Shown in pieces: positions 38,264 to 52,031 of a stretch of 64,000 nt of DNA. Origin of the DNA: Streptomyces tendae (GTDB lineage Bacteria > Actinomycetota > Actinomycetes > Streptomycetales > Streptomycetaceae). The translations under genes and the position numbers were made by a program. Below the pieces are notes generated by a model. The model was given only the letters and a program-made list of their open reading frames with translations, ran no database searches and had not been told where the DNA came from. The first letter of the stretch is position 1, and every line of letters starts with the position of its first letter. The stretch is taken from contig NZ_BMUY01000011.1 in assembly GCF_014650435.1 (NCBI RefSeq), positions 62,001 to 126,000 of the forward strand, given 5' to 3'.

Positions 38264-38839
38264 TCACAGCGGGAGCCCGTCCTCCGCGCTGCGCTCGATG
38301 CGCCGTACCAGGTCGGTCGCCGCCGACTTGATCGTGGCCAGGCCCGCGGTGCCCCAGGTGCGGGGCCGCACGTCGGCGGCGGACACGGTGCCGAGGACGG
38401 TCCCCGTGCTGTCGATGAGCGGGGCGCCGAGGTAGGAGCGGATGCCGAAGGCGTCGACGACGGGGTTGCCCGCGAAGCGCGGGTAGTCGCGCACGTCCTC
38501 CAGCACCAGCGCCTTGCGCCGGACCACCACGTGGGGGCAGAAGCCGTGGTCCCTGGCCTGGACCCGGCCGAACTCGGGGCTGGTCCCGTCGCCCCGGGTC
38601 ACCGGCGGGACCTCCGGCACCCGCAGGCCGGCGAAGAACTGGCCGCCCTCCACCAGGAAGTTGACCATCGCGTACGGCGCCTCGACGAGACCGGAGAGGT
38701 GCCCGGCGTAGGCGTCGAGGGCCGGATCGGGGCGTTCCGCGAGGCCGAGCCGACGCAGCCGCTGTACCCGGGCGGGGGCTTCCCGGTCCTCGGGGGTGAG
38801 CAGTAGTCGTCCGGCCGGGCGCGGTGGGTCGTAGGTCAT
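38264..38839 (-). CDS. GAF domain protein at the end of the conservon
   Basis: The 191-residue cytoplasmic protein is a single GAF domain (APYAMVNFLVEGGQFFAGLRVPE ... FGIRSYLGAPLIDSTGTVLGTVSAADV) with a conserved HGFCPHVVVRRKALVLEDV stretch, and no output domain. GAF modules bind small ligands or mediate contacts. ATG 38839 overlaps the stop of the CvnD GTPase gene by 4 bp, so this is the fifth gene of the conservon. It may supply a signal input for it. Confidence 0.88.
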   Translation of the reverse strand: MTYDPPRPAGRLLLTPEDREAPARVQRLRRLGLAERPDPALDAYAGHLSGLVEAPYAMVNFLVEGGQFFAGLRVPEVPPVTRGDGTSPEFGRVQARDHGFCPHVVVRRKALVLEDVRDYPRFAGNPVVDAFGIRSYLGAPLIDSTGTVLGTVSAADVRPRTWGTAGLATIKSAATDLVRRIERSAEDGLPL

Positions 38840-39465
38840 GGGCGGACTCCGGCGCCGAACCCCGACGCCGGGGCCGGGGTGTGGGCGATGAGGTGGCGTA
38901 CGAGGGTGAGCAGCGTCTGGACGCCGGAGCTGGAGATCCGGGCGTCGCAGCGCACGATCGGGATCTCGGGGTGCAGGTCCATGGCCGCGCGCACCTCCTC
39001 GAGGTCGTAGCGGTGGGAGCCGTCGAACTCGTTGATCGCGACGACGAAGCCGAGCCCGCGTTCCTCGAAGAAGTCGACGGCGGCGAAGGACTCCTCCAGG
39101 CGCCGGGTGTCGGCGATGATCACCGCTCCTAGCGCGCCCTCGCACAACTCGTCCCACATGAACCAGAAGCGTTCCTGGCCGGGCGTTCCGAACAGGTACA
39201 GGACGTGTTCGGGGTCAAGGGTGAGGCGGCCGAAGTCCATGGCCACGGTCGTTTCGAGTTTGTTCTCGATTCCGTCGAGGTTGTCGGTCGCGGTGCTGAC
39301 CGTGGTGAGCAGTTCCTCCGTGCTCAGCGGTGCGATCTCGCTGACCGCGCCGACGAAGGTCGTCTTGCCGACGCCGAATCCGCCCGCCACGAGGATCTTC
39401 AGGGCGGTGGGGAACGGGTCGGCGCCTTCGCCGTGCGCGTAGTCAGAGCTGTCGTCGTAGTCCAT
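38836..39465 (-). CDS. cvnD: Conservon small GTPase-like ATP/GTP-binding protein (CvnD)
   Basis: The 209-residue MglA/Ras-like protein has Walker A GGFGVGKTTFVG (about 33-44), a G3-like GTPGQERFWFMW and a degenerate G4 in VAINEFDG. CvnD proteins are proposed to switch signalling in a complex with the sensor kinase-like CvnA, CvnB and CvnC at the membrane. It overlaps cvnC by 23 bp and the GAF gene by 4 bp. The gene number of the conservon within the genome cannot be told from the window. Confidence 0.93.
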   Translation of the reverse strand: MDYDDSSDYAHGEGADPFPTALKILVAGGFGVGKTTFVGAVSEIAPLSTEELLTTVSTATDNLDGIENKLETTVAMDFGRLTLDPEHVLYLFGTPGQERFWFMWDELCEGALGAVIIADTRRLEESFAAVDFFEERGLGFVVAINEFDGSHRYDLEEVRAAMDLHPEIPIVRCDARISSSGVQTLLTLVRHLIAHTPAPASGFGAGVRP

Positions 39466-39823
39466 CGAGCACTGCCTCCAGAAGGGCCCGGTCCGTGGGG
39501 TGGTGGTGGAACGCGGCGGGGGGTTTGGTGGTCAGCGCGCCGCAGTCGACGAGATCCGAGAGCAGCACCTTGGTGACCGCCACCGGAAGTCGCAGATGTG
39601 CGGCGAGCTCGGCGACCGGGAGGGGCGCCCGGCACAGGTCGAGTGCCTGCGCGTGCTCGGGTCCGAGATAGCCGAGGGGGGTCGCCCCGGTGGCCATGAC
39701 CTGGGACATCAGGTCGAGCGCGACGGTGGGCCGGGTACGGCCGTTGCTGACGGTGAAGGGGCGCACCAGCCGTCCGGCCGCGTCGTCGAGCCAGGGGCCG
39801 TCGCCGGCCGCGGCCACCGTCAA
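39443..39823 (-). CDS. cvnC: Conservon DUF742 protein (CvnC)
   Basis: The 126-residue DUF742 protein is a winged-helix-like fold. It has LVRPFTVSNGRTRPTVALDLMSQVMAT, then LPVAELAAHLRLPVAVTKVLLSDLVDCGALTT. CvnC partners CvnD in streptomycete conservons and probably mediates interactions. It starts 1 codon before the cvnB stop (4-bp overlap) and its own end overlaps cvnD by 23 bp, typical of this tightly packed cluster. Confidence 0.93.
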   Translation of the reverse strand: MTVAAAGDGPWLDDAAGRLVRPFTVSNGRTRPTVALDLMSQVMATGATPLGYLGPEHAQALDLCRAPLPVAELAAHLRLPVAVTKVLLSDLVDCGALTTKPPAAFHHHPTDRALLEAVLDGLRRQL

Positions 39824-40254
39824 GGCCTCATCGCCGGGGGTTCGACGGCGTGCTGCCGGGGTGCGGTGACCAGGTAGGGGCGGACGCTCTTGACGAGCAT
39901 CGCCATCTCGTAGCCCAGGACGGCCGCGTCGGCCTCGCGGCCGGCCAGCACGGCGAGGCAGGTGCCGGAGCCCGCGGTGGTGACGAAGAGCAGGGTCGAG
40001 TCGAGTTCGACGACGACCTGCCGCACGTCGCCGCCGTCGCCGAAGCGGACGCCGGCGCTGCGGCCGAGGGAGTACAGGCCGGAGGCCAGGGCCGCCATGT
40101 GGTCGGCGCTGTCGGCGTCGAGTCCGTGGACGGACTTCACCAGTCCGTCGGCGGACAGGAGCACCGCGCTGCTGGTGTGCGGCACCCGCTGGACGAGACC
40201 GCTCATCAGCCAGTCGAGGTCGGACACTTGGCCGGTCGGCGCATCGCTCGCCAT
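39820..40254 (-). CDS. cvnB: Conservon roadblock/LC7 protein (CvnB)
   Basis: The 144-residue protein has the roadblock/LC7 fold (DLDWLMSGLVQRVPHTSSAVLLSADGLVKSVHGLD ... ADHMAALASGLYSLGRSAGVRFGDGG). This is the MglB-like partner and presumed GTPase-activating protein for CvnD. It follows cvnA after a 136-bp gap, long for a conservon, that is full of G-tracts on the plus strand. The gene overlaps cvnC by 4 bp. Confidence 0.93.
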   Translation of the reverse strand: MASDAPTGQVSDLDWLMSGLVQRVPHTSSAVLLSADGLVKSVHGLDADSADHMAALASGLYSLGRSAGVRFGDGGDVRQVVVELDSTLLFVTTAGSGTCLAVLAGREADAAVLGYEMAMLVKSVRPYLVTAPRQHAVEPPAMRP

Positions 40255-40304
40255 GGTGGATCGACTCCTTGGGGTACGAAGGTCTGCGGGACCGCTGGTC
40301 GTGA

Positions 40305-40336
40305 GGGTTGGGGAGGTGGGGGTGGGGAGGTGGGGG
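40305..40336 (+). other. G-quadruplex-forming tracts in the cvnA-cvnB gap
   Basis: Five runs of three to five G occur (40305-40307, 40310-40313, 40318-40322, 40324-40327, 40332-40336), separated by loops of 1-4 bases, with more G-rich repeats to 40375. They lie on the template strand for the conservon, so a folded quadruplex would stand in the path of RNA polymerase between cvnA and cvnB. Confidence 0.6.
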
Positions 40337-40390
40337 CGGAGGTGGAGGTGGAAAGAGGCATGGGGGTGGTGGGGCGGGTCGTACGGGTGG

Positions 40391-42235
40391 TCATTCGGCC
40401 GGCACGCCCGGGTCCCGGCGGGTCGGTGCCGGCGGCGCCGGTTCGGTGTGCTGCTGGGCCTCCGCGAGGCCGATGCCGCGCTGGAAGGCCGCCATCAGGC
40501 CCGGGTCGTGGCCGGTGTACTGCTCGGGTTCCTGGCGGGGTGCGGGGCCGCCGCGCAGCTGGGGCGCGATGTGCTCCTGGGCGCGGCGGCGCGGCAGTTG
40601 GGGTTTCCCCATGGTGCCGCGCACCGCGCTGTGCCGCGGGACGGGCGGGGTGGCCGCGTGCTCGGCGAGGACACCCCGGTCCTCGGACCGCACGCCGGGC
40701 ACGGCGGCTGCCGGGGTGGGACGGTTCCGGTGCGTACCGCGCACGGGCAGGGGCTCGCCGTCGGCCCTGCGCACCTGGACCTGACCGGTCACCGCGGGGC
40801 CGGGGGCCGGTGGGACCGGAGCGGGTGCGGCCGCGGAGGGTGCGGCCACAGCGGGCGGGACCGCAGTGAGCGGGGCCGCAGTGAGCGGGACCGGAGCCGG
40901 GGTGTCCGGTCCCGCCGGTGGCATCGCGGGGGCCACGGCCCGCGGCTGCTGCCGGGGCTGCGGCACGGGTACCGGCTCGGTCCCGGCGGCCTGGGACGGG
41001 TGGGCCGCACCACCGGGGAGCGCACCCGGCCCGGTGCCCAGCAGGGCCTGCGGCACGACCAGCACGGCCTGTACACCGCCGTAGATGTTGGTCTGCAACC
41101 GCACGGTGATCCCGTGCCGCTTGGCGAGCTGGGAGACGACGAACAGCCCGATGCGCCCGTCGGCCAGCAGGCGGGCGACGTTGACCTGGTCGGGGTCGGC
41201 GAGCAGGGCGTTCATCCGGCTCTGCTCGCCGACGGGCATGCCCAGTCCGCGGTCCTCGACCTCGACGGCCAGGCCCGAGGTGACGAGGTTGGCGCGCATC
41301 AGCACCTGGGTCTGCGGGGCGGAGAACAGGGTGGCGTTCTCGACGAGTTCGGCCAGCAGGTGGATGACGTCGGCGACGGCGTGGCCGCGCAGGGTGCCGT
41401 CGATCGGCGGGACCAGCCGGACGCGGGAGTACTGCTCCACCTCGGCGATGGCCGAGCGCAGCACCTCGGTCATGTCGACCGGGTTGCTCCACTGGCGGCG
41501 GGAGACGGCGCCGCCGAGCACGGCCAGGTTCTCGGCGTGGCGGCGGATGCGGGTGGCGAGGTGGTCGACGTGGAAGAGGCTTTTGAGGAGGTCGGGGTCC
41601 TCGATCTCGTTCTCCAGCTCGTCCAGGATGGAGATCTCCCGGTGCACCAGGGACTGCAGGCGCCGGGCGAGGTTGACGAAGACCTCCAGTTTCTGTTCGC
41701 TGCCCGCCTGGCTGGAGAGCTGGGCGGCGCGGACGACGGCGGTGACGGCTCCGTCGTGGGCGCGGGACAGGTCGGCGGCGAGCAGTTCGAAGTCGTCGGC
41801 GTCGTCCGGCGGTCCGCCGCGCGGTGTGCGCGGGGACGGGGCCTCGCCGCGGCGCAGGGCCTCGACGACGGCGCGCAGGTCGCCCTCCTGGCGCGCGGTG
41901 CTGCGCCGCAGGGCGCCGACGCGGTCGTGCACGGACCGCGCGGCCCGGTCGGCGGCGACCGCGGCGATGACGACGGCGGCGACGGTCACCGAGACCGCCC
42001 CGGCCAGTACGCCCCACAGGACGGGGCCGGGTCGCACGCCGGTGGACCGGACGGTGAACAGGACGACCGCGCAGGCGCCGAGGGCGACCGCGACCGGCGG
42101 CAGGACGGCGAGCCGCAGGAGTTGGGACCGTATGTGGGTCTCGGGCAGCGCGGCGGTGGTCCGTGGGGCCGGCCGGCCGTGCCGCCCGCCCTCGCGGCGG
42201 TCTGCTCGCGCGGCCGGAGCGCGGAGGTGAGACAT
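40391..42235 (-). CDS. cvnA: Conservon sensor histidine kinase-like protein (CvnA)
   Basis: The 614-residue membrane protein has two helices near residues 37-87 with only a short external loop. The cytoplasmic part has a dimerisation helix (FVNLARRLQSLVHREISILDELENEI) and a GHKL ATPase domain. The latter carries the N box HLLAELVENATLFSAPQTQV, the G1 box VEDRGLGMP and GRIGLFVVSQLAKRHGI. The last 190 residues are Pro/Ala-rich and probably disordered. CvnA is the receptor-like component of the conservon, the first gene of cvnABCD-GAF. ATG 42235 has GAGG in front of it, next to a 12-bp tandem repeat. Confidence 0.93.
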   Translation of the reverse strand: MSHLRAPAARADRREGGRHGRPAPRTTAALPETHIRSQLLRLAVLPPVAVALGACAVVLFTVRSTGVRPGPVLWGVLAGAVSVTVAAVVIAAVAADRAARSVHDRVGALRRSTARQEGDLRAVVEALRRGEAPSPRTPRGGPPDDADDFELLAADLSRAHDGAVTAVVRAAQLSSQAGSEQKLEVFVNLARRLQSLVHREISILDELENEIEDPDLLKSLFHVDHLATRIRRHAENLAVLGGAVSRRQWSNPVDMTEVLRSAIAEVEQYSRVRLVPPIDGTLRGHAVADVIHLLAELVENATLFSAPQTQVLMRANLVTSGLAVEVEDRGLGMPVGEQSRMNALLADPDQVNVARLLADGRIGLFVVSQLAKRHGITVRLQTNIYGGVQAVLVVPQALLGTGPGALPGGAAHPSQAAGTEPVPVPQPRQQPRAVAPAMPPAGPDTPAPVPLTAAPLTAVPPAVAAPSAAAPAPVPPAPGPAVTGQVQVRRADGEPLPVRGTHRNRPTPAAAVPGVRSEDRGVLAEHAATPPVPRHSAVRGTMGKPQLPRRRAQEHIAPQLRGGPAPRQEPEQYTGHDPGLMAAFQRGIGLAEAQQHTEPAPPAPTRRDPGVPAE

Positions 42236-42269: not shown

Positions 42270-42449
42270 CGGCCCTACGTCGCCCGACGGACACTGACAG
42301 TAGTCGGCTGCCCCTCATGTGCGGTGGGCAGTTGCCAAAGTCCCCCGGACAACGTCCCGCTCTGGTATGAGGCCTCGTACGACAGACCGATAAGCCGGAT
42401 TCGTAGCCGTTCCGTCACGACGGAGAACCGGTCGGACTCGATCAAAAGC

Positions 42450-42466
42450 GGTCACCGTCGGTGACC
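42450..42466. promoter_or_regulatory. Palindrome GGTCACC-N3-GGTGACC
   Basis: A perfect 7-bp inverted repeat with 3-bp spacer lies midway between the divergent cvnA and CHAT starts. The form is typical of a dimeric repressor site; the regulator is unknown. Confidence 0.5.
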
Positions 42467-42514
42467 AGGCACGGGGAACCGGATGCACGCCCCCGTGAGA
42501 GGCGGCGAGCCGGA

Positions 42515-42547
42515 TTGCCGACGGACCTCCGGGTTGCCGACGGACCT
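42515..42547. repeat. Two 14-bp direct repeats at 19-bp spacing
   Basis: TTGCCGACGGACCT occurs at 42515-42528 and again at 42534-42547, about 230 bp upstream of the CHAT start. It may be an activator site array or a small duplication. Confidence 0.6.
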
Positions 42548-42764
42548 GCTCCGACTGTGCGTGCGCGGCGGCCCAGGTCTTGGGTCATGAACGGGTAGAC
42601 GTCCCTGCGCCGGTTGAAGTCGGCCGCGCGGGTCGGCTTCGCCTGGTCGGCCCAGGAGGGCAGCCGATGCCGGAGGGTCTGCCGGGACCGCGCCGCGCGC
42701 ACGGGGACCGTTCGACGGGCACGGCCCGATCGGCAGCAGGGCCCCACGCGGGGCGTCTCCCTGC

Positions 42765-42770
42765 TAAATT
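42765..42770 (+). promoter_or_regulatory. -10 element of the leaderless CHAT operon
   Basis: TAAATT lies 6 nt before the ATG at 42777 in an otherwise very G/C-rich stretch. The transcription start would fall at the start codon. No Shine-Dalgarno and no good -35 are visible. Confidence 0.5.
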
Positions 42771-42776
42771 CTGAAC

Positions 42777-44075
42777 ATGTCGCGGGGGACGGATCCGTAC
42801 GTGGCGGGCGCGATGGACCGCCGGATCGCTCTGGCCCATGAGTGGGACGAACTGGTGGAGCGTGTCCGCCGGTTGGGGCCACGGTTCGCCTCCTTCCTGG
42901 CACCACCGCGCACACAGGACTTCCTCTCGGCGGTCGGCGACGGCACCGCCGTGCTGATCAACGTGGCCAGGGAGTGCCACGCGCTCCTGGTGACGGCCTC
43001 CGGGGTGACAGCCGTGCCGCTGCCCGGCCTGTCCGCCGCGGAAATCGCCGACCGTACCGAAAGGCATCTGACGGCACTCCGCCGAACGGACCTGGCTGCT
43101 CAGCGGGTGCACCACACCCAGCAGCGAGCCCGGGTGCGCAAGGTTCCCGCCACGTATCAGGCCCACCACGCGGCGAAGATCGAGATGGCCGAGGCCCAGG
43201 CCGAGTTGGACCGGACCCTTCTGCCCCAGCTCGCCTGGCTCTGGGACACCGTCGCCGAGCCGGTCCTTCGGGCACTCGGTTCTCCCGCCAGGGCGGGCGC
43301 CGAGGCGGGACACAGAATCTGGTGGTGTCCGACCGGGCTGCTGTCCTTCCTCCCGCTCCACGCCGCCGGGTACCACGACGGGAGCGGACGCACGGTCCTG
43401 GACCGCGCTGTCTCCTCCTGCGTCCCGACCCTCCGGGCGCTGGCGAGGGCCGCCCGTGCGCCGGAAACGGAGCCGGCCGAGACCGACAAGCTGCTGGTGG
43501 TCGCCGTCCAGGAGGCAGACGGCATGTCTCCCCTCCCCCAGGTCGACGAGGAACTCCGGCTGCTCGAGGACATGTTCGGGCCGGACCGGCTGACCGTGCT
43601 GGAGGGCCCGAACGCCACTCGGGAGGCCGTCCTCGGTCAACTGCCTCAGCACCGCTGGGCTCACTTCAGCTGCCACGGCCGACAGGATCCGCTCGCCCCG
43701 TCCACCGGTGGACTACTCCTCACCGACGGAGTCCTGGGCATCAAGGAACTCGGCGCCCGCGCCTACAATGGCGACTTCGCCTTCCTCTCAGCCTGTATGA
43801 CGGCTGCCGGCGGCCTCTCGCTGAGCGACGAGGCCATCACCGTCGGGGCGGCGCTGCACTACTCGGGCTTCCGGCACGTGGTGGCGGCCCTGTGGTCGAT
43901 CGACGCCGACACGGCGACCGCTCTCACCGGCGACGTCTTCGGATCACTGACGCGCGGTGGGCGGTTCCGCCCGCAGGCATCCGCGGCCGCCGTCACGGAG
44001 GCCGTGATCAGGCTGAGGAACGACAGCCCCGCGCACCCCAGCAGGTGGGCGGCGTTCACTCACATCGGCCCCTGA
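42777..44075 (+). CDS. Stand-alone CHAT domain (caspase-like) protease
   Basis: The 432-residue protein is a CHAT peptidase. The predicted catalytic dyad is His300 in HFSCHG and Cys340 in LSACMT. The conserved downstream GFRHVVAALWSID and the upstream PLPQVDEELRLLEDMFG are in place. Residues 14-100 (DRRIALAHEWDELVERVRRLG ... VPLPGLS) look like the linker that follows the TPR array in fused TPR-CHAT proteins, but here no TPRs precede it. CHAT proteases cut specific partners in conflict or cell-death systems. It heads an operon with a zinc ribbon, a membrane protein and a large TPR protein. Its target is unknown. Confidence 0.92.
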   Translation: MSRGTDPYVAGAMDRRIALAHEWDELVERVRRLGPRFASFLAPPRTQDFLSAVGDGTAVLINVARECHALLVTASGVTAVPLPGLSAAEIADRTERHLTALRRTDLAAQRVHHTQQRARVRKVPATYQAHHAAKIEMAEAQAELDRTLLPQLAWLWDTVAEPVLRALGSPARAGAEAGHRIWWCPTGLLSFLPLHAAGYHDGSGRTVLDRAVSSCVPTLRALARAARAPETEPAETDKLLVVAVQEADGMSPLPQVDEELRLLEDMFGPDRLTVLEGPNATREAVLGQLPQHRWAHFSCHGRQDPLAPSTGGLLLTDGVLGIKELGARAYNGDFAFLSACMTAAGGLSLSDEAITVGAALHYSGFRHVVAALWSIDADTATALTGDVFGSLTRGGRFRPQASAAAVTEAVIRLRNDSPAHPSRWAAFTHIGP

Positions 44076-44109
44076 TCCGCCCGCTTCACACCACAAGAGG
44101 GGGCTCCCC

Positions 44110-44436
44110 ATGGCACTCGTCCCGTACGAAGAGGTCAACCAGCGCTCGTTCGAGGAGGAATCCGCCAGGCGGTTCACCCTCGTCCAGGTCGCGAAGGGCA
44201 CCGCCGAACTCCGCGGCCCGTGCCCCCGCTGCGGCACGGCCATCCAGATTCCCCTCGTCAGCGGCACCTACAAGAGCTTCCGGCTGTGGCGCCGCAACGG
44301 GGTCCGCCCGACCCCGCCGCCCGGAGAGGTCCACGAGGAGACAGTCATCTGCACCTGCGAGGAGGACCACCCTGGGCGGCCGGAGGGCAAGATCGGCTGC
44401 GGTGCCTACTGGTGCCTCGAGATCACCACGTCGTGA
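44110..44436 (+). CDS. Small zinc-ribbon-like protein of the CHAT operon
   Basis: The 108-residue protein contains six cysteines arranged as C38-x2-C41, C81-x-C83 (with His87) and C97-x4-C102, consistent with one or two zinc sites. No signal peptide, helix or catalytic motif is recognisable. ATG 44110 is preceded by AGAGGGGG. It lies 34 bp after the CHAT gene and overlaps the membrane-protein gene by 4 bp (GTGA), so it belongs to the same transcript. It could be a nucleic-acid or protein sensor or a protease substrate; this is speculation. I know of no named family for it. Confidence 0.8.
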   Translation: MALVPYEEVNQRSFEEESARRFTLVQVAKGTAELRGPCPRCGTAIQIPLVSGTYKSFRLWRRNGVRPTPPPGEVHEETVICTCEEDHPGRPEGKIGCGAYWCLEITTS

Positions 44437-45053
44437 GCGCATCCCTGCGTCCGGGCCGCCCCGCGGACCCGTCCGACGCCGCCCACGCACAGGAGCACCA
44501 TCGAACCCTGCGGGCCGAACTCGCGCTGGTGCGCGAGTCCGCCCACTCGTGGCGGATCGGTCTGGGAGGCCTGCTCCTCGCACTGATCGGCTTCAGCCTG
44601 ATCCGGGGCCCCAGCGAGGTCGACAAGGTGGCGCCGCCCTGGCACGCGGTCATCGGCTGCTTGCTGCTCGTGTCCCTCGCCACCGGCGGGTACGGCGCCT
44701 ACCGCCTGCTCAGCGCACACAACGGCAGACCCCGGACACGTCCGGTCGACCTCAGTTCCTCCCCGTCCACGCAGAACCACCTGCTCGCCCTGACGGCCTT
44801 GAGGGACCTGCGTCACGGGATCACCGCGACGTTGCTCTGCACGGTGTTCCTGGTGGCCGCCGTGGGCACCACCTGGTACGGGCCGGAGAAGGAGAAACCA
44901 AAACTGCTGGTGCGCACCGCAACAGGTGCCGTTCTGTGCGGCGACGCGGCGACCGGCGATGGACGCCGCCTCACCCTGCGGACCAAGTCCGGGCGCGTCG
45001 GAGTCGCGCTGTCGGACGTCCTCGTCATGGAGACGGTGGAGAAATGCCCATGA
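44433..45053 (+). CDS. Three-TM membrane protein of the CHAT operon
   Basis: The 206-residue protein has three predicted helices: IGLGGLLLALIGFSLI (about 42-57), HAVIGCLLLVSLATGGYGAYRLL (70-92) and GITATLLCTVFLVAAVGTTWYG (130-151). An acidic, His-containing N-terminus and a hydrophilic C-terminal domain of about 55 residues with two cysteines complete it. With odd helix number, the two ends lie on opposite sides of the membrane. Both neighbours overlap it by 4 bp. It may anchor the system or be a target of the protease. I recognise no family. Confidence 0.82.
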   Translation: MSASLRPGRPADPSDAAHAQEHHRTLRAELALVRESAHSWRIGLGGLLLALIGFSLIRGPSEVDKVAPPWHAVIGCLLLVSLATGGYGAYRLLSAHNGRPRTRPVDLSSSPSTQNHLLALTALRDLRHGITATLLCTVFLVAAVGTTWYGPEKEKPKLLVRTATGAVLCGDAATGDGRRLTLRTKSGRVGVALSDVLVMETVEKCP

Positions 45054-48000
45054 AACGACGATCCGGTGAGCGGGAAACGCACGAGGAGCGGCTCTACTTC
45101 GTGGAGAACCCGGCGACGGCCTGGCTGTCCGACCTGAACACCGCCGTCGAAGCCAACGAGGCCCACCTCGCCGCCCACCCCGACTGTCCCCTCCGCTGGC
45201 TGTACCAGGCCCACACCGGCGACCTCCGTGCCGCACGCGGCGAGCGGACGGAAAGCCGGGAGGACCTGGTCCGGGCGGCCGAACTGCTGAGGGAGGCGTC
45301 CACGGACCCGGAGCCCTCGATCCCGCCCGGCCGGCGTGGAGGGGTCCTCTTCAATCTCGGCAACCTGCTCACCAAGCAAGGACTCGCCGAATCGTTCACC
45401 GCCTTGAGCGAGGGCGTCGACGCCTACCGGCAGGCACTCGAACTGCTGACCGGCGCGGAGCGCCTCGCCTGTGTCTCCAACATGCTGCCGGAACTGCTGG
45501 CCGTTGCCGACCGCTCGGGTCGCCCCGAACCGCGCGAGGAGGCCCGAGAGCTCGCCCTGCGGTTCCTGGACGAGGCGGCCACGCATCCCGTCTCGGAGAT
45601 CGGCGTCTGGAACGCGGCGATCGCATGCCTTCATGCGGAACCGGTCCCGACGGAGCTGCACCTCCGCCTGATCGCCAAGGCGGAGCCACTCGTCCGGCAA
45701 CCCGCGCCCGACGACGTCCGCGGGCTGCGGTTCCACCGGCTGGAGACACTGCTGAGCGCGTGCTGGGAGCGGACCGGGGAACGCCGTTTCCTGTCGCGGG
45801 CCGTCGAGGCGGGCCGACAGGCCGTGGCGCTGTGCCCCACCGAGGGCAAGACGGTGGCCAACTTGGCACTCGCCCTCAAGAAGGCAGGCGCACTCGACGG
45901 GGATCCGGAACTCCTCACGGAGGCAGCCCACTTCTGTACCAGGGCTCTGGAGCTCACCCCTGCGGAATCCGACGACCATCCGTCGATGCGGGGCGATCTG
46001 GCCGGCATCCGCGTCCTGCTGAGCGAATACCAGGACCAGGAAGAGAATCTGCGCGCCGCTCTCCACGAGACCTCCGAAGTCGTCGAACACGGCCGGCACA
46101 CGGGGAACTTCGGGCTCGTGCGAACGTTTCTCCCGAACCTCGCGCTGGTGCGACTGCGGCTGGGGATGGTGATCGATGACCGAGGCCTGAAGACGGACGC
46201 CCTCGACGCATTCCGTGAAGCGCTCAAGCTGCACCTGCCGCCCGGCACACGCGCCCGGTTGCTCGTCAATTACGGCTCCGGTCTGGCCCAGCTCGCCGCG
46301 CACGACGACCGTCCGGCCGACAGACTCCACGAAGCCAACCAGGCCATGACCGAAGCCCTCATCCTGCTGCCGGACGACGAACCACAACTGGGCGAGTTCC
46401 TGCGCGCCCACGCGGTCAACGCGTTCACGCTGACGGTGCACGCCGACACGGCGACGGCCCTCGACACGGCCATCGCCACGTGGGAACGCGTCCTCGCCAG
46501 GGCCACGGCGTGCTCCCTCACCGAACCGGCCCAGGTGTGCCGGGAACTCCTGGCAGTCCACTACTTGGATCGCTACGACGGCACAGCGGACGTGGCAGAC
46601 CTCGGACGAGCCGTCGAACACGGCGAACACGTGCTGCGCAACCCCCACCAGGCTCTCGGAGCCGCCTGGCTGTTGCTCACCGTCTACGCGGTCGGCGATG
46701 CCTACCGTCTGCGCGCACTGGTCACCCACGACCCCAGCGACTTCGAGCACGCCATCGCGTCGGTGGCCGAGGTACTGGAATGGCCGGACCTCCCCCTGCC
46801 CATGCGGCAGAACTTCCTGACCGCCCAATCCGCCACCCACAACGACCGCTTCAACGCCTTCGGCAGGCCATCGGATCTCGACACCGCGCTGGCCTTCGCC
46901 CAGCAGGCGGTCGCCGTTCCCGTGCCCACGGGGCCGGAGTCAAGCACGCACCATCAGCTGGCCGCCTGCCTCAGCCAGAAGTACCAGCAGAGCGGCCTGG
47001 TCGAGCACCTGGACCGAGCGGTGGAGATCTGGCGCGCGGCCCGGTCGTCCATCCGCTCGAGACTCGGTGAGGACGACGACCCTCTGACCGTGTGCTACAC
47101 GGACTCCGATCTCTCCGTCATCCACAACCTGTCGACCACCCTCGCCCAGCGCTACCACCTCCATCAGATCCCCTCGGACCTCGACGAGGCGCTGGACGCG
47201 ATGACGATCGTGCTCCGCCACACCTCCGCGAACCGGCCCGCCCGGCCCGACCGGTTGACCTCCGCGGCGAACATGTTCCGCAGCCGCTGGTCGCGCGACG
47301 CCACGCCCGACGACCTCAGCCGGGCCCTGTCCTACGCGGAAGAGGCCGTCGCCTCCGCGCGTCCGGGATCACACACCCACCTCAACGCGGTCACCGCCCT
47401 GCTCGCCATCCATGCCGACGACCGGGACGTCCTCGGCGACGGGGGCTTCGCGGACGACGGCGGTCACGCCGAGTCGCGCGATCGGGCCGTCGAGTTCGGT
47501 GTCCGGCTGACCGAGTCGGCGGACGTCGCCGCCCTCCGGAGGGGGATACTGCTGACGCACAACACCGCCATGACGATGCGACAGCGGTGGCGTGTCTCCC
47601 GGGACCACAGCGATCTGGACCGCGCCATCTCCCTCCTCCGGAAGGTGCTCGAGCGGGTCGGCGTGGAACGCTCCCCGCTGTCGGCTCTGGCGCTGGGTTG
47701 GACTCTGCTCGATCACTCACGGACGGAGGAAACGGAGTGCTCGCCGGACTCGCCGCTGTCCGCAGCGGAGGCGCGCCGGGGAGCCGCAGCCGCCTTCCGC
47801 AGTGTGGCCTCCTCCGCCACCGCCCCCACCGGTGCGCGCTTCCAGGCCGCCCGCGGCTGGGCCACGGTCACCGGCCGCCCGGACGAGGAGACGCTGGCGG
47901 CCTGCAGGCAGTTGATGGAACTCCTGCCACTGGTGGTCTGGGTGGGAGCTCCTCGCACCGTCCGTGAGGCGGTCCTCGATGACGAGTCGGCCCTGGCACC

Positions 48001-49822
48001 CATGGCGGCCCTGGCAGCTCTGGAGGCCGGCCGGCCCGCCGACGCGGTGGAGTTCCTGGAGCTGGGACGCGGTGTCCTCTGGTCCCAGAGCCTCGACCTG
48101 CGCACCGACCTCACCGAGATCGAGGAGGCGGACCCGGAACTCGGCGCGCGGCTCGCCGCGGTCCGCGAGGCTCTGGACACGCCCACCACGGATGCCGGGG
48201 CGGCGGACCTCCCCCTCGTGGCCGAGTCCTCGGTACCGGCTCCCCCGGACCCCGTCGACCCGGACTGGGAGGCGGTCATCCTTCAGGTGCAACAGAGCTC
48301 GGCGAGCGGTGACCGGGCCGGCCTCTACGACCACCTCGGTCCGCTGACCACCGCCGACGATCCCCGTGTCGCCGGCTACGCGGAATTCGGCCGAGGGCTC
48401 GCCCTCATCGACCGCGGGGAACCGGAGGCCGCCCGCGAGGCACTCTCCCGCGCCGCCGCACACGGCGGTCCCTTCGCCCCCGCCGCGGCCAACACGCTGG
48501 GGGACCTGCTGGTGGCGGCCGACGACTACGGGGCCGCACGGGCTGCCTACGAACGGGCCCGCGACTCGTCCGACCAGGAGCAGTCCAGGGTGGCGGCCGC
48601 GAGCCTGGGCCGTCTGGACGAGATCGAAGCCGCGCAGACCCGGCTCGACCACGGTCTGGCCCGTGTCCTCGTACTCGGTGACGTCCCGGAACTCATCGGG
48701 CTCGCGGTGCGCCTGTTGGAGCAGAGGAGGTTCGCCGACTGCCGCCTCTTCGTGGAGCGTGCCTTCCCGCGCATCCCGTCCGAGGACCAGCCGTCGATGG
48801 CCTCGTTCCTGGCGCTTGTCCGCGGGCGGACGGGTGACGTCCCCGGGGCCCGCAGCGCCTGGGAACACGCCCTCACCAGCGACGATCCGGAGACGGCAGC
48901 GAACGCCGCCCTGGGTCTCGGCGATCTCCTGGCCGGTGAGTACACACTCGACGAAGCCCGCTCCGCCTACGCCCGCGCCCAGGACTTCCCGGGCACGGCC
49001 GACGAGGCCCGCGCCCACCTCGCGGCCCTCTCGGTCCCCTCCCCCGAGGACGCCCCCGTCGACCGGGCTCTCCGCCTCACTTTCGACTACGGGCACTGGC
49101 TGGCCCACCGCCGCCCCGCGGAGGAAGCCCTCACCGTCCTCGAGGAGGCCCTCGCCGCAGGGTGCGCCGACCCCCGCGCCCACTACTACGTCTTCGAGGT
49201 CGTCAGGCTCCGCAGGGAACCCTCGGCACAGTGGATGAGGGAATGCCTCCACCGTGTGCTCGCCCGGTCTCCCGATCCCGGTTCGCCCCTGGCTCTCATC
49301 AGCAGGGCGCGCCTGCGCCAGCTCCGCGGGGACGAGGAAGGCGCCGTGCGCATCCTCGACGACGCCTACGGCGCCGCCATCGCCCGGGGCGACGCCGAAC
49401 TCGCCGCCATCGCCGCCCTGGTGCAGGCCACACACCACCAGCACGTCGAGAACGTCAACGCCGCCCACGACGCCTACCAGCGGGCCATCCGCTCGGGCCA
49501 CCCCGAACTCTCCCCGACCGCCGCCTACTGGATGGCGGTCATGCTCGACGAGGCCGACCGTGGGGAGCAGGCCCGCGCCGCCTACCGGCACGTCATGATC
49601 AGCGGCCACCCGGTCCAGGGCGGCATGGCGGCTTTCACCCTCGGCATGAGCCTGGGCAGGGCCGGTGACGTCGACGGGGCCGTCAAGGCGTTCACATGGG
49701 CCGCCAACGGAGTCTGGGAGCAGTCGGCGGCCGACGCCAGGAAGATGCTGGCGAGAATCTCCGCCGACGGATCCGACTCCGCCGACCCGCCCGACCGCCC
49801 CGGCCCTCGGGGCACCGGCTGA
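45050..49822 (+). CDS. Giant TPR protein of the CHAT operon, CHAT domain replaced by further TPRs
   Basis: This 1590-residue cytoplasmic protein is nearly all helical repeats. Residues 1-1000 have the irregular TPRs typical of actinobacterial TPR-CHAT proteins (for example DLDEALDAMTIVLRHT and SDLDRAISLLRKVLERVG). Residues about 1001-1045 hold the linker VEFLELGRGVLWSQSLDLRTDL that in fused proteins directly precedes CHAT. Instead, a Pro/Asp-rich joint and about 500 residues of regular TPR/Sel1-like repeats follow (DDYGAARAAYERARDSS, GDVPGARSAWEHALTSDDPETAANAALGLGDLL). ATG 45050 overlaps the previous stop; ATG 45044 is too near the GGTGGAG. It is probably the sensor or scaffold for the CHAT protease. 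Confidence 0.9.
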   Translation: MKRRSGERETHEERLYFVENPATAWLSDLNTAVEANEAHLAAHPDCPLRWLYQAHTGDLRAARGERTESREDLVRAAELLREASTDPEPSIPPGRRGGVLFNLGNLLTKQGLAESFTALSEGVDAYRQALELLTGAERLACVSNMLPELLAVADRSGRPEPREEARELALRFLDEAATHPVSEIGVWNAAIACLHAEPVPTELHLRLIAKAEPLVRQPAPDDVRGLRFHRLETLLSACWERTGERRFLSRAVEAGRQAVALCPTEGKTVANLALALKKAGALDGDPELLTEAAHFCTRALELTPAESDDHPSMRGDLAGIRVLLSEYQDQEENLRAALHETSEVVEHGRHTGNFGLVRTFLPNLALVRLRLGMVIDDRGLKTDALDAFREALKLHLPPGTRARLLVNYGSGLAQLAAHDDRPADRLHEANQAMTEALILLPDDEPQLGEFLRAHAVNAFTLTVHADTATALDTAIATWERVLARATACSLTEPAQVCRELLAVHYLDRYDGTADVADLGRAVEHGEHVLRNPHQALGAAWLLLTVYAVGDAYRLRALVTHDPSDFEHAIASVAEVLEWPDLPLPMRQNFLTAQSATHNDRFNAFGRPSDLDTALAFAQQAVAVPVPTGPESSTHHQLAACLSQKYQQSGLVEHLDRAVEIWRAARSSIRSRLGEDDDPLTVCYTDSDLSVIHNLSTTLAQRYHLHQIPSDLDEALDAMTIVLRHTSANRPARPDRLTSAANMFRSRWSRDATPDDLSRALSYAEEAVASARPGSHTHLNAVTALLAIHADDRDVLGDGGFADDGGHAESRDRAVEFGVRLTESADVAALRRGILLTHNTAMTMRQRWRVSRDHSDLDRAISLLRKVLERVGVERSPLSALALGWTLLDHSRTEETECSPDSPLSAAEARRGAAAAFRSVASSATAPTGARFQAARGWATVTGRPDEETLAACRQLMELLPLVVWVGAPRTVREAVLDDESALAPMAALAALEAGRPADAVEFLELGRGVLWSQSLDLRTDLTEIEEADPELGARLAAVREALDTPTTDAGAADLPLVAESSVPAPPDPVDPDWEAVILQVQQSSASGDRAGLYDHLGPLTTADDPRVAGYAEFGRGLALIDRGEPEAAREALSRAAAHGGPFAPAAANTLGDLLVAADDYGAARAAYERARDSSDQEQSRVAAASLGRLDEIEAAQTRLDHGLARVLVLGDVPELIGLAVRLLEQRRFADCRLFVERAFPRIPSEDQPSMASFLALVRGRTGDVPGARSAWEHALTSDDPETAANAALGLGDLLAGEYTLDEARSAYARAQDFPGTADEARAHLAALSVPSPEDAPVDRALRLTFDYGHWLAHRRPAEEALTVLEEALAAGCADPRAHYYVFEVVRLRREPSAQWMRECLHRVLARSPDPGSPLALISRARLRQLRGDEEGAVRILDDAYGAAIARGDAELAAIAALVQATHHQHVENVNAAHDAYQRAIRSGHPELSPTAAYWMAVMLDEADRGEQARAAYRHVMISGHPVQGGMAAFTLGMSLGRAGDVDGAVKAFTWAANGVWEQSAADARKMLARISADGSDSADPPDRPGPRGTG

Positions 49823-49926
49823 TCGGGACGTCGGCGCCGGGCACGGGCGTTGGCCGGGGGCAGGGGCCTCAGTGACGGGTCGTCACCTGGCGTCTTATCC
49901 CGTGGAAGACTACGGTGCCTGGCTCG

Positions 49927-49932
49927 CATACT
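49927..49932 (+). promoter_or_regulatory. -10 element of a leaderless zinc-ribbon gene
   Basis: CATACT lies 6 nt before ATG 49939, the same spacing seen for the genes at 42777 and 24365. There is no Shine-Dalgarno. Confidence 0.4.
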
Positions 49933-49938
49933 GGCCCG

Positions 49939-50445
49939 ATGAGGCCGCACTCCACGCATCATCGGTTCCGGGACCCGCGCAGCACGAAATACGACTTCCT
50001 CGTCTCGGTCCTCGTTCGCTGTCCCGGCTGCGCGAAAGCCGCGCACGTCGTGACTGCCCCGGCCCCGGAAGGCGGGCACGACGGTGGCCTCTTCGCTCCG
50101 AGGCGTCTCGTCTGCCGCAGCTGCGGGACGTCGAAGCAGTGGAGCGGTCGGAGTGTGGCCCTTCACCGTGACCCGCACACGTCGGCAACCGACCCGTACT
50201 TCGGCATTCCTTTGTGTCTGCAGACCGAAACCCGGCACGGATGGGTATGGGCCTACAACCTGGAACACCTTGACCTGATCAGACGCTTCGTGCAGGCGTC
50301 GCTGCGTGAGGGGATTCCCTGGCACGACCACGGCCTGAAGATGACCACGGTGGCCCGCCTGCCCTCATGGATGCAGCACGCCAAGAACCGCGACGAGGTA
50401 CTGCGGGCCATCGACCGCATTCACGCCTCACTGGTTCACACCTGA
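49939..50445 (+). CDS. TFIIB-type zinc-ribbon protein of unknown function
   Basis: The 168-residue protein carries a four-cysteine zinc ribbon, C28-P-G-C31 and C59-R-S-C62. A conserved-looking domain follows (YFGIPLCLQTETRHGWVWAYNLEHLDLIRRFVQASLRE) and a C-terminal helix LPSWMQHAKNRDEVLRAIDRIH. I recall similar stand-alone proteins in streptomycetes but no known function. It lies 116 bp after the TPR gene with its own likely promoter, so it is a neighbour of the CHAT operon and not necessarily a member. An in-frame ATG at 49915 is less likely. Confidence 0.75.
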   Translation: MRPHSTHHRFRDPRSTKYDFLVSVLVRCPGCAKAAHVVTAPAPEGGHDGGLFAPRRLVCRSCGTSKQWSGRSVALHRDPHTSATDPYFGIPLCLQTETRHGWVWAYNLEHLDLIRRFVQASLREGIPWHDHGLKMTTVARLPSWMQHAKNRDEVLRAIDRIHASLVHT

Positions 50446-50502
50446 GCCGGTGCGCGGCATGCAGCACGGCAAAGGCGCGGCCCGCTCGAGTCGACTGCCT
50501 GC

Positions 50503-50739
50503 TCACGTCGTCCCGGCAGACGGCTGGCATCGGCGGCCAGGAGGCGAGAAGGACTGCAGGAACGGGGTCGTCAACGACAACAGCGTCAACGTGTCCATCC
50601 CTGCGTCGGCGGACCTGCTCGCCATTTCGACACAGCGAGGATCGACGATCTCATCGAACTCGACGCGCCACGTCAGGTCCAGGCCGAAGCTGCCGAGGCG
50701 AACCAGTAGCTCTGCTGCTTCGGCTTCCTCGAGCGCCAT
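50503..50739 (-). CDS. Possible small protein downstream of the MBL-fold gene
   Basis: A 78-residue reading frame starts MALEEAEAAELLVRLGSFG after GGAAGAGGGCCGC, an adequate ribosome site. It continues with a balanced, protein-like segment (LDLTWRVEFDEIVDPRCVEMAS) before a less natural basic end. It lies 15 bp after a 28-codon frame coupled to the MBL-fold gene, so it could be the end of that operon. I recognise no family. It may equally be the remnant of a longer gene. Confidence 0.4.
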   Translation of the reverse strand: MALEEAEAAELLVRLGSFGLDLTWRVEFDEIVDPRCVEMASRSADAGMDTLTLLSLTTPFLQSFSPPGRRCQPSAGTT

Positions 50740-50754
50740 GCGGCCCTCTTCCGT

Positions 50755-50841
50755 TCAGGGAGCAGTAGGACACGTCCCGTCAGCAAAGAGACGCTCCAGC
50801 ATCTGGACCATCTCCCCCAGCTCCGGCCCGACCGACGTCAC
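50755..50841 (-). CDS. Possible 28-residue peptide coupled to the MBL-fold gene
   Basis: GTG at 50839-50841 overlaps the TGA of the MBL-fold gene (GTGA). The frame encodes VTSVGPELGEMVQMLERLFADG and a few more residues before a stop. The amphipathic helix in the middle and the coupling argue that it may be translated. Chance cannot be excluded at this length. Confidence 0.3.
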   Translation of the reverse strand: MTSVGPELGEMVQMLERLFADGTCPTAP

Positions 50842-52031
50842 CTCTCCCCCGCAAGGTCGAGATCACCCTTGCTCGTCCCCGCCACGCCCTCGACGATCCG
50901 GGGACGGCGCCACGGGTGCGCGATCGGTGACGACACCGCCCGCCACCACGCCCCCGCCGGCAGCTTTCCGGCCGGCTCGAACGGCTCCCCCGGGGTGGGG
51001 AACGCCACCGCCTGACCGGCCTCCTCGGCCGCGTCCTTCGTCCACTCCCCCGGCTCCGCCCACGCGTGCGGCGCCAGGTTGAAGGTGCCCCAGTGGATCG
51101 GCAGCAGGGCGCCGTGCGGCCGGCCGCCCTGGAGGTCGAGGTGGGCCCGGACGCCTTCCTCGGGCGTCATGTGGATGTCCGGCCAGAACTCCGCGTACGC
51201 GCCCAGCTGGATCATCGTGGCGTCGAACGGGCCGTGCGCGGCGCCGATGTCGCGGAAGCCGTCGAAGTAGCCGGTGTCCCCGCTGTGGTACACGCGGTGT
51301 TCGTCGCCGGCGACGACCCAGGACGCCCAGAGGGTGTGCTGGGTGTTGCGCAGCCCGCGCCCGCAGAAGTGCCGGGCCGGGGTGGCGGTGAGGGTGAGGC
51401 CGCCGACGCGCGTCGACTCGTGCCAGTCCAGCTCGCGCAACCGGTCGGGGGAGACCCCCCAGTGTTCGAGGTGGCCGCCGACGCCGAGCGGCACGGCGAA
51501 CACGGTGTCCGTGCCGGCCAGCGCCTTGATCGTCGGCATGTCCAGATGGTCGTAGTGGTCGTGGGAGATGACGACGACGTCGACCGGGCCCAGGGCGGCG
51601 AGCGGCAGCGGCACCGGGTGCAGGCGCTTGGGGCCGGCGAAGGGGAACGGGGAGCAGCGCTCGCCCCACACCGGGTCGAAGAGCACGCGCTGCCCGTCGA
51701 TCTCGGCGAGCACGCTGGAGTGGCCCATCCAGGTCAGCCGGAGCCCGGTGGCGGGTGGCCGGGCGAGGTCGGCCAGGGTGGTGGCGTGCACCGGGATCGG
51801 TCCCCGCGGGGACCGGCGCAGCCGCGCCTCCTTGTTGAAGTAGATCTTGGCGAATTCGGCGGCCGATCCGGAGGGCCGGGTCCGGGCGGTGCCGCCGGGG
51901 TTCTGGAAGACGCCGTCGCGGAAGTGCGGCGATCTGCGGATGCGCGCCATGCGCTCACCGCTCGGGTCCACGCCGAAGGCGGCGGGCCGCGGCACGCTGA
52001 GCCCGGGACTCGGGGAACGGAAAGCGGCCAC
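50838..52031 (-). CDS. MBL-fold metallohydrolase (NAPE-PLD/UlaG-like)
   Basis: The 397-residue metallo-beta-lactamase-fold enzyme has the zinc motif VVISHDHYDHLDMP (HxHxDH) near residue 150, then ATPARHFCGRG, YHSGDTGYFDGF and LPIHWGTFNLA with the remaining ligands. It starts WMGHSSVLAEIDGQRVLFDPVWGERCSPF, the opening of the NAPE-PLD/UlaG branch, which hydrolyses phosphodiesters or lactones. The substrate is unknown. The N-terminal 70 residues lack a signal. The gene is divergent from the TetR gene, 166 bp apart, which may regulate it. Confidence 0.9.
   Translation of the reverse strand: MAAFRSPSPGLSVPRPAAFGVDPSGERMARIRRSPHFRDGVFQNPGGTARTRPSGSAAEFAKIYFNKEARLRRSPRGPIPVHATTLADLARPPATGLRLTWMGHSSVLAEIDGQRVLFDPVWGERCSPFPFAGPKRLHPVPLPLAALGPVDVVVISHDHYDHLDMPTIKALAGTDTVFAVPLGVGGHLEHWGVSPDRLRELDWHESTRVGGLTLTATPARHFCGRGLRNTQHTLWASWVVAGDEHRVYHSGDTGYFDGFRDIGAAHGPFDATMIQLGAYAEFWPDIHMTPEEGVRAHLDLQGGRPHGALLPIHWGTFNLAPHAWAEPGEWTKDAAEEAGQAVAFPTPGEPFEPAGKLPAGAWWRAVSSPIAHPWRRPRIVEGVAGTSKGDLDLAGER

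Follow-up and report, generated by a model that had tools for sequence, protein, structure and literature searches.

The question raised by the four-gene operon at positions 42777 to 49822 of a 64,000-nucleotide stretch of Streptomyces tendae (contig NZ_BMUY01000011.1, positions 62,001 to 126,000; this whole stretch, from a host genome of 8.9 Mb, is called the window) is which of its genes form the constant core of a system and what that system might do. All four genes are co-directional on the forward strand and encode, in order, a stand-alone CHAT protease of 432 amino acids (aa; 42777..44075), a zinc-ribbon-like protein of 108 aa, called ZnR (44110..44436), a protein of 206 aa with three predicted transmembrane helices and a GTG start, called TM (44433..45053), and a tetratricopeptide repeat (TPR) protein of 1590 aa that is a candidate sensor or scaffold (45050..49822), with intergenic gaps of 34, -4 and -4 bp. 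The CHAT protein matches PF12770 over residues 151-431 (E=2.8e-41, 142.3 bits; Pfam cut-off 24) and carries the catalytic dyad His300, in AHFSCHG, and Cys340, in LSACM. The initial annotation of the locus had given the same reading frames, junctions and dyad. Our results indicate that ZnR and TM, which related bacteria repeatedly encode together next to caspase-like proteases, appear to belong to an undescribed system of defence or cell death that is driven by a protease.

The searches behind this statement were seeded with ZnR and TM and never with the protease. The seed ZnR, the window's own, was found in 23 of 295 Streptomyces genomes and also in S. thermovulgaris (L028), and profiles of TM (A1) and ZnR (A2) widened the locus set after this first search. 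The TM profile has matches in 52 of the 295 Streptomyces genomes and in 8 of 396 genomes of the phylum, and the ZnR profile in 12 of 394 genomes of the class, in 6 of 137 genera. We examined 79 loci, each of up to 20 kb except for the 24 kb around the window operon; 61 of the 62 Streptomyces TM places were fetched as loci (G030:C35 was left out). Ten of the 79 were excluded from the pair count (L031, L032, L050, L075, L083, L091, L093, L094, L107 and L108), and outside it also stand L029, an archaeal locus matched over 22 residues, and L116 from S. goshikiensis, which was added later and is not among the 69 loci counted. In all 69 the ZnR-TM pair is co-directional and ZnR-first, with a median gap of 23 bp between the matched domains. 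Within the fetched locus, 31 pairs have a CHAT partner, 27 a C14 caspase and 11 neither, so that 58/69 have a protease. If the unit is defined as a ZnR gene followed directly by TM in the same orientation, plus a caspase-fold protease within the locus, it is present in the window and in 57 others of the 69. Among the 61 Streptomyces pairs the partners are 25 CHATs, 27 caspases and neither in 9 cases, and outside Streptomyces 6 of 8 pairs have a CHAT. The conserved co-occurrence across genomes on which the initial annotation had made its proposal depend is thus strongly present. Because related loci are not independent (L049/L055 and L064/L065 are near-copies), no single p-value is given. As a background, CHAT was found in 231/295 Streptomyces genomes, at no fewer than 621 places (at most 7 scored per genome), and the expected chance of a CHAT is about 0.5% per 20 kb locus, or 1.6% if every genome had 7.

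Since the pair recurs beside either CHAT or C14 and its tree follows the type of partner, the constant element is, by sequence comparison, ZnR-TM, while the protease and the sensor vary. The initial annotation had not seen this constancy, nor that the pair is shared with C14-caspase genes. Of the 31 CHAT partners, 14 immediately precede the pair in the same orientation (<100 bp between domains), another 14 are upstream but on the opposite strand, and the remaining 3 are downstream (L099 at 27 bp, L078 and L103 about 3 kb away). The His and Cys columns are invariant in 31/31 aligned CHATs, these being 30 of the 31 pair-associated proteins plus that of L031, with the partial match of L078 left out. 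The C14 caspases were found by a profile built from three of them, and one His and one Cys column are invariant in 28/28. Those three of the 27, which were scanned with Pfam, are about 1670-1710 aa long and contain Peptidase_C14, iHD-CE/HD-CE and wHTH-Hsp90-associated domains; Hsp90-like ATPase matches lie below the cut-off in two of these three. A quick tree of concatenated TM and ZnR, with pairs that lack a visible protease (orphans) left out, separates CHAT- from caspase-partnered pairs with one change, so the pairing is co-inherited. At L063 (L063:8822-15608) two C14-caspase genes on one strand flank a ZnR-TM pair.

The second part of the answer concerns the origin of the CHAT and TPR genes. 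The initial annotation had noticed that the CHAT gene opens with the linker that follows the TPRs in fused TPR-CHAT proteins, yet has no TPRs itself. Alignment to the fused proteins places this second linker half, DRRIALAHEWDELVERV, at CHAT residues 14-30 (42816..42866, forward strand), and Pfam lists no TPR family in the CHAT protein at E up to 1. The first linker half, LELGRGVLWSQSLDLRTDL, sits in the TPR protein from residue 1003; it begins the stretch of residues 1003-1045 (48056..48184, forward strand) that in fused proteins directly precedes the CHAT linker half. Such fused proteins (1986-2177 aa, one predicted gene) are followed on the same strand by ZnR and TM in three genomes of another family, f90 (L095, L097 and L098). 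Window CHAT residues 15-432 align to L097 1553-1986 with 45% identity and window TPR residues 912-1044 to L097 1411-1545 with 40% identity, leaving 7 residues between the two alignments; they lie 3 to 27 residues apart in L098, L036, L049 and L099 and overlap by 9 in L095. Across the fused relatives, the identity is 37-46% for CHAT and 40-50% for the TPR end preceding the linker, so the outcome that the initial annotation had named as a refutation, a fused form unrelated to either gene, does not hold. Residues from about 600 to 1044 of the TPR protein match the TPR part of fused TPR-CHAT, and those from about 1050 to 1590, some 540 residues past the linker, form an extra TPR array. Pfam gives TPR matches alone for this protein, each below its cut-off. 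Because the alignments of the two proteins adjoin each other within a single polypeptide in fused relatives, chance is excluded, and because fused TPR-CHAT + ZnR + TM operons exist in the same CHAT clade, the separation and reordering proposed at the outset are borne out: on these alignments, the window operon is a split, reordered form of the fused operon.

The number of splitting events is a different matter. In the CHAT tree the window falls in a 13-row clade (99/98) together with the other eight rows labelled split, the three fused ones L095, L097 and L098, and L096, and the split rows lie on one side of a branch with support of only 52/78. L096, labelled fused, has a separate, divergent TPR gene, and no TPR gene was found beside the L031 CHAT, though L031 is labelled split. 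A single fission is not claimed, because of this branch support and because these two labels do not hold. The TPR gene is downstream of TM in the window, L028, L030, L033, L034, L038, L041 and the S. goshikiensis plasmid locus L116, and divergent from CHAT-ZnR-TM in L035 and L096. In L030 it is shortened, its match being confined to the first 790 or so residues, and the record has a polyprenyl diphosphate synthase gene overlapping its end. Between the window and L028/L030 the identity is 72-74% for CHAT, 68-69% for ZnR, 76-77% for TM and 54-55% for TPR; the TPR protein thus diverges fastest of the four, as a sensor would.

Two trivial explanations of the separate genes can be set aside. Chance open frames are ruled out, as homologues retain the genes. 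An annotation artefact, in which a frameshift had hidden a fused gene, is rejected because CHAT comes first and TPR last and because two plasmid records annotate separate genes. The TPR start was set at 45050 because of the -4 overlap with TM. The TPR reading frame happens to be open back to 42842 (42842-49822, 2326 codons), right through the CHAT gene, a high-GC effect that could mislead gene callers.

The two constant proteins have no recognised family: neither ZnR nor TM exceeds a cut-off in Pfam or NCBIfam, and neither is listed in PADLOC or PHROGs. In ZnR, the candidate ligands C38, C41, C81, C83, H87 and C97 occupy columns kept in 67-69 of 69 relatives, and its AlphaFold2 (AF2) model has a predicted local distance difference test score (pLDDT) of 85.8; the structure look-up gave nothing above Z 2.1. 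The AF2 model of TM (pLDDT 85.4) has helices at 13-57, 68-97 and 111-149, the strands at 157-202 forming a C-terminal five-stranded small beta barrel that is Sm/SH3-like and, by predicted fold, Hfq/Sm-like. The structures that this barrel resembles are small barrels, Hfq/Sm-like ones among them (Foldseek E at best 7.4e-3; Z about 7-9 over ~50 residues), a likeness from which RNA binding is not claimed, and the helical bundle has structure matches at Z of about 9.5, within the range that the tool calls common. The mean lysine plus arginine (K+R) count is 8.3 for the N-terminus, 0.6 for loop 1 and 5.8 for loop 2 (20 rows of A1), which predicts an N-in/C-out topology. The N-terminal helix and the 92-128 loop would then be cytoplasmic, and the barrel, with C169 and C205, would be outside. 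These two cysteines are invariant in the 20 rows of A1 and fall short of 80% among all 69 relatives, many of which have no barrel. The barrel is not essential to the family, because 13/62 Streptomyces TM places match only to about position 156-171 of 209 (8 caspase-partnered, 3 CHAT-partnered and 2 orphans). Matches below the cut-off, namely DUF4131 (TM), TPR-S (TPR protein) and PepSY_TM (the TM of L046), were not used.

The unit is an accessory one, and plasmids of two Streptomyces carry it, a feature that the initial annotation had also not noticed. The operon is absent from the same site in 6/6 relatives examined, of 12 other genomes with the downstream flank gene; these relatives have 330-3078 bp between the matched flanks, versus 8.5 kb in the window, and their loci contain no match for the four window proteins. 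Compared with the syntenic site of one of them, G003 (L109), the stretch without counterpart is 42392..50931. It includes the operon and, shortly after the TPR gene, a short open reading frame containing two CxxC pairs (49915-50445), which has no Pfam family and no DNA match in L028 or L030. The DNA match of the window with these two loci begins at 42765-42784 and does not extend beyond 49765. The flanks common to the window and the six relatives are a Lactamase_B_2 gene on one side and, upstream of the operon, a conservon-like cluster at 38264-42235 (HATPase, Roadblock/LC7, ATP_bind_1 and GAF genes by Pfam), which we take to be a conservon. Related operons lie on the S. tendae plasmid NZ_CP043960.1 (TM 77% identical) and on an S. 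goshikiensis plasmid (TM 38%), in whose records CHAT is named and the other three genes are 'hypothetical protein'. Searching plasmids with the TM of L045 and that of L048 gave no match.

Our preferred reading, to which we give a probability of roughly 0.45, is that these genes constitute a horizontally mobile, protease-gated membrane effector system, with a role that is probably anti-phage or abortive. We infer its mechanism from precedents in which effectors lie beside caspase-like proteases, the gasdermin operons (PMC9612521) and the canu caspase-nuclease loci (PMC12799240), both of which illustrate a protease-gated effector, and from Csx29, which cuts Csx30 so that a sigma factor is freed and whose substrate is encoded in its own locus (PMC10028731). 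The fast-evolving TPR protein would sense an invader signal and dock on CHAT through the two linker halves, which are joined in the fused form, thereby activating it. Active CHAT would cut ZnR and/or the cytoplasmic face of TM (the N-terminal helix or the 92-128 loop), ZnR serving as a latch or adaptor between protease and TM, and the freed TM would damage or depolarise the membrane, so that the infected hyphal compartment is killed or arrested. The initial annotation had likewise proposed that this could be an abortive-infection or regulated-proteolysis system, with ZnR and TM as candidate target or accessory proteins.

Neighbouring genes in related loci supply a toxin or defence context that supports this reading. 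In a divergent TPR-CHAT subgroup (L040, L042, L043, L044 and L047), next to ZnR-TM, the TPR-CHAT gene is followed in 5/5 cases by an identical set of two genes, each for about 220 aa; the second matches a RES domain, as scanned in the L040 copy (L040:4121-5448), and the other, its 221-aa partner, could be an antitoxin-like CHAT target. At L045 (L045:9222-13823) ZnR-TM is directly divergent to IetAS (PADLOC IetA E 5e-66, IetS E 5e-101), a tested defence system, and this IetS is the only one of that model found in the 295 Streptomyces genomes. L031 has, in a row, a MoxR-type AAA gene, a vWA (DUF2201) gene, a LigT-like gene, a CHAT of the window's clade that is apparently frameshifted near its end, and ZnR (L031:5008-10156).

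Several observations weigh against this reading. We found no data on cleavage, toxicity or phages for any member, and none of the listed structures matched by the TM model is a known pore former. The pair itself is incomplete in L031, which has CHAT-ZnR and no TM, and in L032, where ZnR stands alone with MoxR-vWA and neither CHAT nor TM was found. Three CHAT partners are distant, at 2.8-6.4 kb: L070, whose CHAT is upstream on the other strand, 6.4 kb away, L103 and the partial match of L078. The 11 orphans have no visible CHAT or caspase. L100, L104 and L105 are on contigs of 5-14 kb, where the partner may lie beyond the contig end. Five (L037, L071, L084, L089 and L105) are nested in partner-bearing clades of the TM + ZnR tree, which suggests that the protease was lost, and the pair can thus persist without a nearby protease; in L071, ZnR is broken, with its parts in two frames. 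No other regular protease partner emerged among the large neighbours scanned around orphan pairs, which are mostly unrelated (EF-G, glutamate synthase, transporters, a relaxase, an M1 peptidase and a ricin-lectin protein); only L045 has a defence protease, and its IetAS link, a single case with a weak tree position, is suggestive. Finally, the 'varying protease' is a modest claim, because the exchange of CHAT for caspase is supported as only one deep switch. As for what surrounds two of the orphans, the L057 pair (L057:7151-10291) is downstream of an EF-G-like gene, and that of L104 (L104:4247-10381) is beside a divergent 1548-codon frame that has lectin domains of the ricin type and, at its end, a Tox-REase-5 match below the cut-off, a layout that resembles polymorphic toxins.

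The same data can be read in other ways. The predicted N-in/C-out topology of TM, with its outside Sm/SH3-like barrel, would also suit a membrane-tethered sensor module, in which ZnR-TM anchors the protease complex and the barrel reports envelope damage, while the damage comes from CHAT cutting host proteins and not from TM. That ZnR-TM is common to different proteases, each with a large putative sensor region of its own, fits this idea; the TPR and HD/Hsp90-type regions are themselves already sensor-like, however, so that two sensors would be needed, and the barrel is dispensable in view of the 13 short TM places. We regard this explanation as unlikely, though worth keeping in mind. We think it quite unlikely that the operon serves gene expression by regulated proteolysis, with CHAT cutting TM or ZnR and so releasing ZnR, or a factor bound to it, as a regulator. 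Zinc ribbons are common in transcription proteins. The idea also has a TPR-CHAT precedent in Csx30/CASP-sigma (PMC10028731), but neither a sigma factor nor a stand-alone HTH gene is present in the conserved four-gene unit, the structure look-up found no match for ZnR, and one subgroup has the toxin-type RES gene instead.

A housekeeping or developmental protease operon with no relation to conflict would be consistent with the conservon-like regulatory cluster that adjoins the window operon, and with PADLOC 2.0.0, in which none of the four window proteins had a match at E up to 1. It is very improbable in the face of the patchy distribution (TM in 52/295 Streptomyces genomes), the absence of the operon at the site in all six relatives examined, the plasmid copies, and the IetAS and RES neighbours. 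PHROGs had no match for the queries P0001-P0003 and two relatives (the TPR protein was outside this query set), nor did P0003 have one in the phage collection.

Returning to the protease-gated effector system, a bolder version of it holds that ZnR-TM represents membrane executioners of a new class, set free by proteolysis, equivalent to gasdermin in function and unrelated to it, which actinobacteria couple to CHAT-TPR, to C14-caspase-HD-Hsp90-type proteins and once to IetAS, the window being a two-part switch triggered by assembly through the old linker. We consider this version doubtful; if TM were the executioner, bacteria would have a second way, one that does not involve gasdermin, of turning caspase-like cleavage into membrane death. 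We know of no substrate for most CHATs. Caspase-like proteases are abundant in multicellular bacteria, and ZnR-TM, a small pair that stays constant while accompanying both caspase-fold lineages (CHAT with TPRs, and C14), is a concrete candidate for a substrate or an executioner. The split operon allows sensor, protease and effector to be added or removed gene by gene.

Comparison with known systems places the operon among the caspase-fold protease conflict systems, a known kind, of which the constant components ZnR-TM appear undescribed. The pair was not described in the literature searched, including the accessible parts of PMC7159879, PMC8195603, PMC9612521, PMC12799240, PMC10907252 and PMC10028731, a scope outside which most subscription journals fall. 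IetAS resembles the window system in that the IetAS pair adjoins ZnR-TM in L045, but a subtilase/AAA pair is in the place of CHAT, and this is a single case. The MoxR-vWA conflict systems (PMC7159879, with 'CHAT' and 'Hsp90' absent from the main text) are approached by L031, which couples MoxR-type AAA and vWA to a window-clade CHAT-ZnR, whereas the window operon has no NTPase; Pfam lists no MoxR, vWA or STAND NTPase (E up to 1) for any of its four proteins. The canu loci and nuclease-protease pairs share a protease with a co-encoded effector that the protease activates and that is reused across systems (PMC12799240); the canu effector is an MBL-type nuclease, in contrast to the membrane protein and zinc ribbon found here, whose activation we infer. 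With the gasdermin operons the likeness is in logic only, in that the membrane-acting candidate stays constant and the caspase-like protease next to it varies (PMC9612521); TM is a predicted three-helix protein with a small barrel, paired with ZnR, and no gasdermin was recognised among the listed structure matches of its model. Csx29 of Craspase is the studied TPR-CHAT relative. The window CHAT scores 34.2 bits on its NCBIfam model NF041237 (cut-off 300), and Pfam found no Cas-like protein among ten flanking proteins scanned. With fused TPR-CHAT and Csx29 the window system shares the CHAT His/Cys dyad, a TPR array joined through the same linker and a partner protein encoded nearby; it differs in that TPR and CHAT, both homologous to the fused form, are not one polypeptide but two separate genes with ZnR and TM between them.

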